Source of the DNA: Sphingobacterium sp. UBA2700
GTDB lineage: Bacteria > Bacteroidota > Bacteroidia > Sphingobacteriales > Sphingobacteriaceae
Assembly (NCBI GenBank): GCA_002354335.1
Contig: DELI01000025.1
Location: 1 to 64,000, forward strand
DNA length: 64,000 nucleotides
Reading direction: 5' to 3'
The notes below the pieces were generated by a model. That model worked only from the letters and a program-made list of their open reading frames with translations. It did not search any database and had not been told where the DNA came from. Position numbers and translations under genes: made by a program. Numbering within the stretch: position 1 is the first letter of the stretch; each line of letters begins with the position of its first letter. Of this stretch, positions 8 through 52,399 are shown one piece after another.

Positions 8-284
8 TTAGTAGTTAGTAATTAGACATAGGGTTGAATATTGGAGTGCTGTCTTGAGTACCAGGAAAGGAAGGATTTAAGGATTGACAGGATAGTTACG
101 CCATCGGTCTAACTACTAAGTACTAACTACTAAATACTATTTCTGAACCAGGAAAGGAAGGATTTAAGGATGGGCAGAATCTTACGCCATAGGTATAATT
201 ACTAAGTACAATTTCCAAAAAGAATGGCGCCTAATCGGCGCCATCCAAAAGTCTATTCTCTAAAATCTGATGTCTAAAATCTAA
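8..284. repeat. Heptad-repeat locus A (TTAGNNN / NNNCTAA arrays with conserved core)
   Basis: The spacer downstream of arginase is built almost wholly from 7-bp units. TTAG-phase units lie at 8-28. Reverse-phase arrays lie at 106-140, 192-212 and 250-284; the first two begin with GGTCTAA or GGTATAA. Between arrays is a core containing GGAAGGATTTAAGGAT (69-84 and 156-171) followed by a variant of CAGGAT and ACGCCAT. The last array runs into the arginase stop codon (281-283). The same core and array design recurs at 40803-41174. No coding frame explains it. Confidence 0.85.
214..244 (-). terminator. Probable terminator of the arginase operon
   Basis: A perfect inverted repeat, ATGGCGCC at 224-231 and GGCGCCAT at 237-244 with a 5-nt loop, is followed on the minus strand by a T-rich run. 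It lies about 40 bases beyond the arginase stop codon, between two heptad arrays. Confidence 0.6.
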
Positions 285-22552: not shown

Positions 22553-22653
22553 GGGACTAGGACGTGTTAGTCCCAATGTAAACCCAATTCAAACCCAATA
22601 CAAACCCAATGCATACCCAAATCAAAACCGTTCTGAAAGGGCTATGATTTGGG
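22553..22653. repeat. 11-bp CCCAATNNAAA array with hairpin (copy 1)
   Basis: Five 11-bp units run head to tail from 22572 to 22626, each starting CCCAA. They lead into a hairpin, CCCAAATCA (22616-22624) pairing with TGATTTGGG (22645-22653). A second hairpin, GGGACTA (22553-22559) with TAGTCCC (22568-22574), opens the array. The same design is found in reverse orientation at 52318-52399. The rest of the 240-bp gap between genes holds only short dyads. Confidence 0.8.
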
Positions 22654-38967: not shown

Positions 38968-40569
38968 ATGATTGAATCTAATATTTTGTTAGTCATGGTC
39001 TTATTTTTCTTCATGGCCATGTTGTTCGTGATTAGTCAACGCTTTAGTATTTCTTATCCTATCCTGTTGGTAATTGGTGGATTGGCGATATCGTTGATTC
39101 CCGGAATGCCGGAAGTTAGCATCAATCCTGATATTGTTTTTCTTATTTTTCTGCCACCCTTACTCTTTGAGGCGGCCTGGTACACCTCATGGCATAGCTT
39201 CTGGAAGTACAAACGATCAATTATGATCATGGGCTTTGGGTTAGTATTTGTTACATCGCTAGCCGTTGCTTATCTTTCGGTGCAGATTATTCCGGGTTTT
39301 ACGCTAGCCTTAGGTTTTCTCTTGGGCGGGATTATTTCACCGCCGGATGCTGTTGCTGCCACCTCTGTTCTCAAAGGTGTCAATATGCCGAAACGTGGCA
39401 TTACGCTGTTGGAGGGGGAAAGCTTGGTCAACGATGCGGCCTCATTAACCGTATTTCGATTAGCTTTAGCGGTCATCATTACCGGAAGTTTCGAGCCTCA
39501 AGAAGCCATCGTCAATTTCTTTACCCTTGCCGTTATGGGGATATTTGTTGGCCTTGTAATCGGACATATTCTCTATTTTTTCCTGCGCTATGTTGCTAAA
39601 TCCTCAAGTATTACAACACCTATCACACTGATCGCACCATATATCATGTACATCGTCGCGGAACATTTCGAATGGTCCGGTGTACTTGCTGTTGTAGCAG
39701 GGGGATTGTTTTTATCTTTTCGCTCGAAGGATTATATGGATTATCATACGCGCATCCAAACGCGTGAGGTATGGGATACGGTAGGATTTCTGTTGAACGG
39801 ATTCGTATTTATACTCATTGGTCTGGAGCTTCCGATAATTATTGCCGGTATTGAAGATGTCTCGATGGAATGGGCAATAAAAATGGCCTTGTGCATTACT
39901 GCGATCATCATCGTAATTCGAATCGTATTTATCTATGGCGCTGCCTTTATCCCGAGAATGATTTTCAAAAGCGTACGAAAGAATGAGTCTTCACCCGGAT
40001 GGAAACTTCCCTTGGTCATTGGTTGGGCCGGTATGAGGGGGGTCGTGTCGCTTGCCTCCGCACTAGCCATTCCGCTGACGTTGAGCGACGGAACGGCATT
40101 TCCGCATCGCAACCTTATCCTGTTTATTACCTTCGTCGTGATTTTGATTACGCTGGTCGTCCAGGGGCTTTCCCTGCCATGGCTTATCAAAGGGATAAAA
40201 CTTGAGGGCAATTCGGAAGAAATTCCTGAGGAGGTACAGATCGAGGCGATCCGCTATCGCTTGGCACGAGAGGGAATGAAGCTTGTCGAAGAGAAATATG
40301 CCGATGAATTGCGAGAGAGTTTTACGGTAAAGGCGATTTATACACAGATGAAGAGGCGATTAGATACCTCGGCATCCAGCATCGATCAAGAATCTAAGAT
40401 CCGCATAGCCAATGAGAAAGACCTTTATAAAAGAGTAACACAAGACGTCATCGATCAACGCAGGAAGACCTTATACGCCATGCACACAGAGAAAAAATAT
40501 GATGATGCCCTTCTCAGAGAGTTGGAACATAATCTTGATTTAGAGGAATCTAGATTAAACCGGAAGTAA
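38968..40569 (+). CDS. CPA1 family Na+/H+ antiporter
   Basis: A 533-residue protein with 12 to 13 membrane helices. It carries the CPA1 ion-site motifs GGIISPPDAVAATSVLKG and EGESLVNDAASLTVFR, and GWAGMRGVVSLASALAIP further on. A soluble C-terminal region of about 120 residues follows. It would exchange Na+ or K+ for protons. It is divergent from rlmF. A GAAA-loop terminator lies about 200 bases beyond its stop. Confidence 0.93.
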   Translation: MIESNILLVMVLFFFMAMLFVISQRFSISYPILLVIGGLAISLIPGMPEVSINPDIVFLIFLPPLLFEAAWYTSWHSFWKYKRSIMIMGFGLVFVTSLAVAYLSVQIIPGFTLALGFLLGGIISPPDAVAATSVLKGVNMPKRGITLLEGESLVNDAASLTVFRLALAVIITGSFEPQEAIVNFFTLAVMGIFVGLVIGHILYFFLRYVAKSSSITTPITLIAPYIMYIVAEHFEWSGVLAVVAGGLFLSFRSKDYMDYHTRIQTREVWDTVGFLLNGFVFILIGLELPIIIAGIEDVSMEWAIKMALCITAIIIVIRIVFIYGAAFIPRMIFKSVRKNESSPGWKLPLVIGWAGMRGVVSLASALAIPLTLSDGTAFPHRNLILFITFVVILITLVVQGLSLPWLIKGIKLEGNSEEIPEEVQIEAIRYRLAREGMKLVEEKYADELRESFTVKAIYTQMKRRLDTSASSIDQESKIRIANEKDLYKRVTQDVIDQRRKTLYAMHTEKKYDDALLRELEHNLDLEESRLNRK

Positions 40570-40771: not shown

Positions 40772-40804
40772 AGCTATCCTCGAAAGAGGGTAGCTGTTTT
40801 TTTT
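40772..40804 (+). terminator. Strong terminator before heptad locus B
   Basis: AGCTATCCTC (40772-40781), a GAAA tetraloop, and GAGGGTAGCT (40786-40795) form a 10-bp stem with one T-G pair, then eight T residues. It is 200 bases past the antiporter stop, so it may end a long 3' UTR or a small RNA made from the 40570-40770 stretch, where I see no other feature. Confidence 0.75.
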
Positions 40805-41174
40805 AGTACTAAGTACTTAGTACTTAGTATTTAGTAGTTAGTAGTTAGACCTATAGTTGGATATTGGAGTGTATTGTCTTGAACCAGAAAATGAAGGATT
40901 TAAGGATGAGCAGGATATCACGCATAGGTCTAATTACTAAGTACTAAGTACTAACTACTATTTTGAAAGGAAGGATTTAAGGATGAGCAGGATATCACGC
41001 ATAGGTCTAATTACTAAGTATTAAGTACTAACTACTATTTTGAAAGGAAGGATTTAAGGATGGTCAGGATCAAGCAGAAAGGAAAAAAGACTTTGATCGG
41101 GTCTAAAATCTCATGTCTAATATCTAACATCTAATGGCCCGGCATAGGTCTAACTACTAACTACTAACTACTAA
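40803..41174. repeat. Heptad-repeat locus B (seven TTAGNNN units, 77-bp tandem core, NNNCTAA arrays)
   Basis: Seven successive heptads, six of them TTAGNNN and one TAAGTAC, fill 40803-40851. Reverse-phase arrays follow at 40927-40961, 41004-41038, 41100-41134 and 41147-41174, each opening with GGTCTAA. Between them is a core with GAAGGATTTAAGGAT starting at 40893, 40970 and 41047, a precise 77-bp period. The outer ends TTAGACC and GGTCTAA are inverted repeats. The last array contains the stop codon of the next gene (41157-41159). Confidence 0.88.
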
Positions 41175-41423: not shown

Positions 41424-42305
41424 TTATCTTTCAAATCTTTGGTATTGCGTTTCAAAGAATTGCAGGGTCTTGTCGGGTAAAGTATGGTTCAGAACGATTT
41501 CAAGGTTATTTGCAACTTCAGCTGCAAACAGCTTAAACACCTTCAACATGGCGAACGAAGCCTTCCAATTATCTTTCATATCGGCACCTGCAAATGTGGC
41601 TTTCACGAGCATCCATTCTTCCTTGGATAGATATTGCTCAAACAAGCGCCCATGCTTATTGCTGCTGACTTCCCAATTGTTTTTGGAACCAATATACCAC
41701 TCAATCATTGGCTCCAGATATTCAATACGAATGATATGTTCAAACATAAACTTATAATAGAACAAATCGCCACGATTTAGGCATTTCGGTAGATAGCTCA
41801 CGTCCCACCAGAAATCACTATAGACTTTGTGGAATTGGGCTGCGCTGGGCTTATGGATGAGCGAAACCTGATAGGAGGGCGGCGCAAGATCTTTCGTAAG
41901 ATTGTCTTTGTCGATTAATATACGATAGCCAATATCCCAGTCCTCGGGAAGTTTGCTCTTCCTGGTTTCGGCAATAAATTTTTCCTTATCGTATAACTTA
42001 AAGTCTATCTTATCTGCATCTACGAATTGCACCATTTTCATTGCATGTACATTATTGAAATAGCTTTCATCCTCTTCATAAATGTTCAAGGGCTCCCCAA
42101 ACTGATAAATCCATTCGGAACTGTTTTTATAGGGCGTTAGATCGTCGAATACCAACTCAATATCCAGGTCGCTATACGCATCGACGGGAGCCAAGGGATT
42201 AACAAGCGAACTCGTCAATAGGGCAGCTCGAATATCAGGATTGCTAGCAATCCAATATTCGACGGCTTTAAGTTTTTCAACTCGGCTAGACATTTCTTTA
42301 TCCAT
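41424..42305 (-). CDS. ANT(6)-like aminoglycoside 6-adenylyltransferase family
   Basis: A protein of about 293 residues with the nucleotidyltransferase site AYSDLDIELVF (near residue 48) and the ANT(6) helical C-terminus (SDFWWDVSYLPKCLNRGDLF). Family members adenylylate streptomycin, but chromosomal copies in Bacteroidota are often of unproved activity. The GS before the acidic motif reads SS here. The start is uncertain among ATGs at 42314, 42305 and 42293. There are no mobile genes around it. Confidence 0.78.
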   Translation of the reverse strand: MDKEMSSRVEKLKAVEYWIASNPDIRAALLTSSLVNPLAPVDAYSDLDIELVFDDLTPYKNSSEWIYQFGEPLNIYEEDESYFNNVHAMKMVQFVDADKIDFKLYDKEKFIAETRKSKLPEDWDIGYRILIDKDNLTKDLAPPSYQVSLIHKPSAAQFHKVYSDFWWDVSYLPKCLNRGDLFYYKFMFEHIIRIEYLEPMIEWYIGSKNNWEVSSNKHGRLFEQYLSKEEWMLVKATFAGADMKDNWKASFAMLKVFKLFAAEVANNLEIVLNHTLPDKTLQFFETQYQRFER

Positions 42306-42426
42306 GAGATACAATTTAACGAAAAAAACTGATTTGCTACCGGAGATATGTCTTTCATGGTTTCCATTGTAACAGCAGGATGAATGAAAGTTCTAGACGA
42401 TGTTTGAAAACAAACACTTGGAGAAA

Positions 42427-52317: not shown

Positions 52318-52399
52318 CCCAATATACACCCCAATCATAACCCTATCGAAGCGGTTATGATTGGGGTTTGTATTGGGTTTACATTGGGTTTGAAAGGGC
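52318..52399. repeat. 11-bp array with 14-bp hairpin (copy 2, reverse orientation)
   Basis: CCCCAATCATAACC (52329-52342) pairs perfectly with GGTTATGATTGGGG (52353-52366) around a 10-nt loop. On its right are 11-bp units TTTGTATTGGG (52367-52377) and TTTACATTGGG (52378-52388), then TTTGAAAGGGC; on its left is CCCAATATACA. Reversed, it lines up with the array at 22572-22653. The remainder of the 400-bp gap between mnmA and gapA holds terminators only. Confidence 0.82.

Follow-up and report, generated by a model that had tools for sequence, protein, structure and literature searches.

The whole stretch of DNA analysed here, 64,000 nucleotides from Sphingobacterium sp. UBA2700, is called the window. 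Its main repeat locus lies in a spacer of 854 bp between two converging genes. The repeat features, read from the sequence, and the flanking genes are given below by window coordinates. The two classes of heptads, A (TTAGTAN) and B (TNAGAYD), were defined from arrays of G001, the nearest genome compared, which was also used for genome-wide counts.

38968-40569, + strand: sodium/hydrogen exchanger gene, left flank of the 854-bp spacer
40772-40804, + strand: intrinsic-terminator-like hairpin, AGCTATCCTC-GAAA-GAGGGTAGCT, with a T-run
40803-40851, + strand: left class A array of seven heptads, the second being TAAG and the last TTAGACC
40889-40965, + strand: first copy of the 77-bp unit, a GGAT core and an inverted (CTAA) class A array
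40927-40960, - strand: right class A array, GGTCTAA and then NTACTAA units
40966-41042, + strand: second copy of the 77-bp unit, 97% identical
41004-41037, - strand: right class A array, second copy
41043-41070, + strand: third core copy, with no class A array after it
41103-41134, - strand: class B array of five units, the second being CTCA; class as defined from the G001 arrays
41147-41174, - strand: outermost right class A array, which has one unit more in the G001 ortholog
41424-42314, - strand: streptomycin-adenylyltransferase-like gene (PF04439, E 6e-65), right flank, adjoining the element

The T-run of the terminator-like hairpin contains the start of the left array. The initial annotation of this DNA had reported an exact 7-bp phase over up to 49 bp, and the seven heptads of the run 40803-40851 bear this out. 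GGTCTAA or its complement was found on the core side of the arrays, as had been stated (TTAGACC at the end of the left array; GGTCTAA in the right runs at 40927, 41004, 41100, and 41147). The 77-bp period of the core was also recovered: its copies start at 40889, 40966, and 41043, and one 77-bp unit consists of a core and a right array. The description of the units as TTAGNNN on the left and NNNCTAA on the right held for the inverted heptads, but the NNN bases are not free, being TTAGTAN in class A and TNAGAYD in class B (e.g., 41103-41134). A CRISPR array, dismissed already in that annotation, was rejected here as well, because the units are 7 bp long and the 77-bp repeat has no unique spacer, instead of identical repeats of 20-40 bp with unrelated spacers. 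At the gathering score, Rfam recognised three tRNAs only in the whole window, and the element had no match. As RNA, the arms of the element were computed to give a good fold (-59.3 kcal/mol, z -7.2). The core, GGAAGGATTTAAGGAT (window 40889-40916 and 62-93), carries GGAT every 8-9 bp and in G001 often stands head to head with its inverse.

A second locus is present at the beginning of the window (8-284), with the following parts.

8-28, + strand: left class A array of three units
62-93, + strand: core
106-137, - strand: right class A array
260-284, - strand: class B array, with a GGCGCC-TAATC-GGCGCC hairpin directly before it

Runs of CCCAA and GGGTT words with a period of 11 were also seen in the window (22572-22626 and 52364-52396), and spacers of G001 hold a second kind of phased repeat, an 11-bp module (AAACCC... 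/ GGGTTT...) in both orders.

Around the main element, the window and G001 were 97.6-98.5% identical. The G001 ortholog had one extra 77-bp unit and one extra unit in the last array; the left array differed at three of its six N positions and at two bases within the second unit. Single units are gained and lost, and the differences in unit number and N positions indicate that the structure changes on a short time scale.

The initial annotation had proposed a genome search for runs of at least three units, and had named two results that would speak against the element: a restriction to the two loci, or an equal frequency in shuffled spacers. The three-unit pattern TTAGNNNTTAGNNNTTAG matched G001 515 times (275 + 240), against 4 (3 + 1) for the reversed control, and was found also in relatives, so that the two loci are far from being the only ones. 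The 16-base core with at most one mismatch was found 112 times (41 + 71), against 0 for the control. About half of the G001 pieces overall were chosen for holding arrays or cores; rates are quoted where possible from an even sample, 40 evenly placed 20-kb stretches (800 kb), and genes in all G001 analyses are simple longest-ORF calls, not annotations. TTAG and CTAA at period 7 were the two top phased four-letter words in the even sample (256 words, periods 5-15). Its spacers (84,764 bp) held 43 runs of at least three units, where 60 dinucleotide shuffles gave 0.03 on average and never more than 1, and its coding sequence (708,662 bp) held 0, in agreement with the expectation that the runs sit between genes. 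With other unit spacings, no run was found in the same spacers between 4 and 13 bp; at 14 bp, which is twice 7, there were 13.

The four-unit pattern was present in 29 of 60 Sphingobacterium genomes, with totals from 0 to 213, and in 68 of 198 genomes of a phylum sample, often with other NNN. The reversed control equalled or exceeded it in several genomes of the phylum sample; in seven genomes that were re-examined, the control matches (8 to 159 each) were real GATTNNN arrays. Named Sphingobacterium records were the only ones to yield a match to a class A pattern with 20 fixed bases (18 stretches), so the family guessed in the initial annotation is right.

Class definition was based on 237 arrays in the G001 pieces, 113 of class A and 124 of class B; neither consensus unit contains GG. 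Four and five units were the commonest array lengths, and the two strands were used about equally (129 and 108). The NNN positions do not vary freely: class A holds positions 1-6 at 98-100% and drifts at position 7 (G162/T97/C67/A13 in 339 units), and class B follows TNAGAYD. In 109 core-anchored arrays, position 7 varied with the rank from the core, being mostly T first and then G or C, so that the arrays resemble copies taken from a master, drifting at a single position. Neighbouring units had an equal N in 60 of 308 cases (0.195), against 0.327 expected with rank kept (SD 0.022), and 0 of 2,000 shuffles were as low, in line with the earlier statement that this is not a simple microsatellite. 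The N bases do not match between arms: at the same rank, 50 of 128 were equal (36 pairs), no excess over shuffled partners (0.446). Since neighbours are seldom alike and the arms do not match at N, the arrays are accounted for neither by slippage alone nor by selection for arms that pair perfectly.

Many G001 spacers follow one grammar, namely an array, GACCTAKGGCGG, a class B array, the GGAT core, and the inverse order, with parts missing or repeated. Some spacers were mixed, one end carrying class B and the other class A (1458813); this is beyond what one insertion gives and is a point against reading the elements as insertions. Spacer matches of at least 60 bp within G001 (3,769 matches) had a median likeness of about 80%, and hence no recent burst is seen.

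Arrays inside a called ORF numbered 2 of 237 in all G001 pieces and 0 of 63 in the even sample. Among the spacers of the even sample, 12 of 67 convergent, 14 of 216 tandem, and 2 of 87 divergent ones had arrays. Where an array end lay within 30 bp of a gene boundary, the array pointed away from the gene in 93 of 96 cases and toward it in 3 (mixed set). The same orientation was kept at six start codons as at gene ends, indicating that the rule concerns the spacer rather than transcription. Seventy-two arrays begin within 15 bp of a stop codon, and this codon was TAG in 48 of them, compared with 215 of 792 genes overall. It was in phase with the array in 36 of the 72, against an expectation of 1 in 7, and 33 of these 36 were TAG; the near-stop and orientation counts come from the mixed set, and in the even sample alone 9 of 19 near-stop arrays were in phase. 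The outer end of the arrays is sharply bounded at TAG. Terminator-like T-runs precede 24 of the 237 arrays by at most 25 bp. Class B arrays and cores were also seen in the G001 spacer 3' of the 5S rRNA gene (L106 16700-17300, G001 3026.7-3027.3 kb; also L109 near 15070), where the 5S rRNA gene was confirmed by Rfam for L106 only.

Truncation of genes by the arrays was considered and rejected, as relatives that are mostly array-free end the same proteins at the same codon. For leuS, all 22 readable loci besides G001 stop right after the same C-terminal motif, and one of them (G209) has an array; the set had 30 loci, from which the G001 row was dropped because the wrong stretch had been matched, and seven gave no reading. 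Alignment extended to the last residue in six of six relatives for purH, in both relatives shown for a gene of 816 aa, and in four of six for a CorC-like gene, the other two ending 3 and 14 residues early. The names leuS and purH are from NCBIfam; the CorC-like and 816-aa proteins had no model above cut-off. The unchanged protein ends of the relatives indicate that the arrays did not cut leuS or purH short, and in most relatives read these genes are array-free. At the 3' end of purH (L170 after 6120; L225 and L223), one and the same place carried a class B array in G001 and one of class A in G003, and G209 had a short stretch that looked decayed; arrays of different class at the same place fit selection for place as well. 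After leuS in other Sphingobacterium genomes (L184, L185, L188, L193, L198), we noticed a different repeat, with TTAGTGATAAT... and ATTATCACTAA-like words.

Comparison of the same site for presence or absence, proposed in the initial annotation, was possible at two levels. Among 40 matched spacers of G001 and G209, arrays were found in G001 only in 4, in G209 only in 1, in both in 2, and in neither in 33; a separate first 60-kb synteny block held no informative spacer. Within one genome, the contrast was seen in rRNA operons of G203, another Sphingobacterium. Operons were recognised by Rfam as 16S-tRNA-tRNA-23S in L316, L317, L319, and L326, and as 16S-tRNA-tRNA in L325 and L327. One pair of anchors within the 16S-tRNA-Ile spacer of G203 enclosed 77-78 bp in four of six operons and 6 bp in two; the filled operons were longer by 71-72 bp, a heptad palindrome, and the aligned flanks were identical. 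A discrete unit is present or absent at this rRNA spacer site, and it is a unit of another species and of another version than the classes of the window.

The target word TAAGAAAA, up to 8 bp long, stands at both ends of the G203 insert, each version being complete on one side and 1-2 bp short on the other. Three of the four filled operons need no indel if TA by itself was duplicated; given the 1-2 bp indels at the junctions, the duplicated stretch may be either 8 bp or just TA. The empty operons may also have been produced by precise deletion between direct repeats, by excision, or by gene conversion. The deletion reading comes from the relative G225, which is filled at the same place and has heptad palindromes in both rRNA-operon spacers. 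The whole 65-bp insert of G203 (L316) gave helices of mostly 5-6 bp with a single mismatch about every 7 bp (z -3.3), and the palindrome in the tRNA-tRNA spacer of G203 lacked exactly one 7-bp unit in one of six operons. In rRNA-spacer inserts of 65-98 bp from five genomes, with several unit types, 7 was the strongest of lags 4-12 in nine of nine, the nine having been picked by eye for a heptadic look and misses not counted. Their palindromy ranged from 0.46 to 0.69, with 8% of shuffles as high for the G220 insert (0.46) and 1.5% for the G241 insert (0.49).

Several candidates for an enzyme that moves the units were examined. The Y1 (RAYT-type, HUH) transposase model PF01797 gave 0 matches in G001, G209, and G003. 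It was found in 13 of 60 Sphingobacterium genomes, with one match each in G203, G225, G226, and G246, which bear arrays or inserts, and with many copies in the array-poor G200 and G232. A link with RAYTs was rejected for its absence from the former three genomes and its abundance in the array-poor two; the transposases of G203, G225, G226, and G246, candidates by their PF01797 match, may have a role there. The DDE_3 (IS630-type) model PF13358 was found in only 2 of 60 Sphingobacterium genomes, on which ground an IS630/Tc1-type link was dropped, and had no match in G001, G209, G225, or G203. In 1.04 Mb of G001, no gene was recognised between inward-pointing arrays, as a full-length element would have. 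Two IS3-family copies of G001 (L131 13113-14479; L087 13688-15047), 98.9% alike, both adjoin class B arrays, as though insertion sequences used arrays as landing places. IS3 as the carrier of the arrays was rejected, as the arrays beside these copies are located beyond the IS ends. The Bacteroides RRM protein RbpB was set aside as a reader of UUAG: 'uuag' occurs 0 times in the main text of the report, which gives an AU-rich preference (PMC11697453).

We lean toward the reading, which we hold to be slightly better than an even bet, that the feature in the window belongs to a family of palindromic insertion units which are short and non-autonomous and have heptads as their arms. A non-autonomous element spreading in spacers had been suggested from the outset, and the intergenic location, the inverted pairs round a core, the differences between relatives, and the block present or absent within one genome agree with it. 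For a REP in the strict sense, also suggested, there is no support in this genome: the search for a Y1 (RAYT-type) transposase came up empty in G001, G209, and G003. We infer that classes A and B moved like the rRNA insert of G203, that the heptads are read by a protein, and that their conservation is due to movement and not to regulation. The minimal unit would be about 65-98 bp, with a few degenerate heptads, a short core, and heptads in inverted order, and larger elements such as that of the window would be units nested and tandemly duplicated. Units would persist at harmless places: on or directly behind stop codons, directly behind terminators, and in the spacers that separate rRNA from tRNA genes; with an outer end of TAG-NNN-TTAG, landing on a stop codon could leave a TAG stop. 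The heptads would be kept because a sequence-specific factor reads them, most likely an enzyme that moves or copies the unit, so that the unit would depend on an outside enzyme with the heptads as its recognition sites. Drift at the N positions, seldom equal in neighbours, would keep the arrays from becoming perfect, unstable repeats.

It is unlikely, in our estimation, that the arrays are regulatory or insulating sequences of the host, in which TTAG heptads or a long RNA hairpin would protect or separate transcripts at gene ends and selection would set their place after stops. TTAG heptads would give stop codons in all six frames within 21 bp, and the 72 near-stop arrays, the fold of the window arms (z = -7.2), and the exchange of class B for class A at purH between G001 and G003 are what this explanation would predict. 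Against it speak the findings that the orientation is unchanged at start codons (6 arrays), that heptad inserts lie in the untranslated rRNA-tRNA spacers, that the arms match no better at N than shuffled partners (50/128 vs 0.446), that heptads without TTAG exist in other genomes, and that the same genes are array-free in most relatives read. More doubtful still is the reading that the heptads are bound by a DNA-binding protein of the host, chromosome-organising or other, and were spread as its sites when spacers recombined. The initial annotation had put forward phased sites for a protein reading one face each 7 bp. Protein-binding sites are possible, since six of the seven class A positions are held and the seventh drifts, and the nearly equal use of strands (129 and 108) suits them. 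Seven base pairs are two thirds of a helical turn, so the heptads do not present one face and the 7-bp pitch does not match the helix; moreover, the unit sequence differs between genomes of one genus and counts range from 0 to 213 among the 60 Sphingobacterium genomes.

Least probable is that the arrays are simple heptanucleotide microsatellites made by polymerase slippage, which is disfavoured as the sole cause. The rarity of identical adjacent units (0.195 vs 0.327, 0 of 2,000 shuffles as low), the arms inverted round a core found 112 times in G001, and the confinement of mutations to fixed positions all oppose it, even though the exact 7-bp loss in one of six G203 rRNA operons and the one-unit difference between the window and G001 would be natural products of slippage.

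Reading the elements as insertion units invites comparison with known systems. MITEs are short, have inverted ends and no ORF, lie in spacers, and have a target-site duplication. The heptad elements are likewise short, with inverted ends, no ORF, and a location in spacers, and may have a target duplication, and the palindromy of some inserts is weak; unlike in MITEs, their inverted ends are repeat arrays, and no cognate transposase was found in G001 with PF01797 or PF13358. REP palindromes with RAYTs, in the parts of the source used here, are short intergenic palindromes in many copies (PMC3733652). The heptad elements differ in having arms made of heptads, no single tetranucleotide tag at one end, and no Y1 transposase in G001, G209, or G003.

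Direct repeats of TAACTGA were described from Beggiatoaceae, Cyanobacteria, and some Bacteroidetes (MacGregor 2015, PMC4679880). According to the sections of that paper drawn on, the units are identical, almost always direct, and in the Beggiatoaceae genome mostly just upstream of start codons, and other heptamer repeats were noted in Bacteroidetes spacers. Both these repeats and the TTAG arrays are heptameric and intergenic, and TAACTGA is patchy across phyla, but TAACTGA units are identical and direct, whereas TTAG units vary and their arms are inverted. In a survey of sequence patterns, as far as its relevant part goes, Bacteroidetes scored 0.75 for 7-mer tandem repeats, and 18 of 23 groups scored 0 (PMC4060949). 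Among the matches listed from the open-licence literature, no earlier report of TTAG arrays was found, and literal-string text matches there were, by title, not about bacterial spacer repeats.

The closest likeness is to the GGGAATC and GGGGA(C/T)T heptad repeats of Xanthomonas and Nostoc (Rehm et al. 2015, PMC4692102). In the sections of that report considered here, the Xanthomonas heptads have fixed and free positions, usually four units, a mostly intergenic location, and inverted pairs, with 186 and 183 sites in two genomes and 83% of sites common to two species. They are rare between divergent genes and read away from the nearer ORF whatever its direction, lying close to a stop when on the sense strand or close to a start when on the antisense strand, and in some cases overlapping a stop codon; they were related to G-quadruplexes and their function was left open. 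The Sphingobacterium arrays share with them the 7-bp phase, fixed and variable positions, intergenic location, reading away from the nearest ORF, and scarcity between divergent genes. Unlike these G-tract (quadruplex) heptads, the Sphingobacterium consensus units have no G-tract; sites are shared in 2 of 7 array-bearing matched spacers between G001 and G209, versus the 83% between the two Xanthomonas species; and presence or absence of a palindromic block, seen in G203, is not described for Xanthomonas heptads in those sections.

We therefore raise, tentatively and as a rather doubtful generalisation, the idea that the heptads of distant phyla (TTAG in Sphingobacterium, GATT in other Bacteroidota, GGGAATC in Xanthomonas, GGGGAYT in Nostoc) might be arms of one class of mobile palindromes, defined by the 7-bp phase and not by the sequence, and moved or copied by an unrecognised enzyme, the quadruplex being incidental. 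Published work has connected the surplus of heptamer repeats in bacterial spacers with polymerase slippage or G-quadruplexes. In the present arrays, this layout and placement rule occur without a G-tract, with neighbours that tend not to be identical and with block-wise presence or absence of a unit, which opens the origin of such repeats to testing and points to a copying or moving factor.
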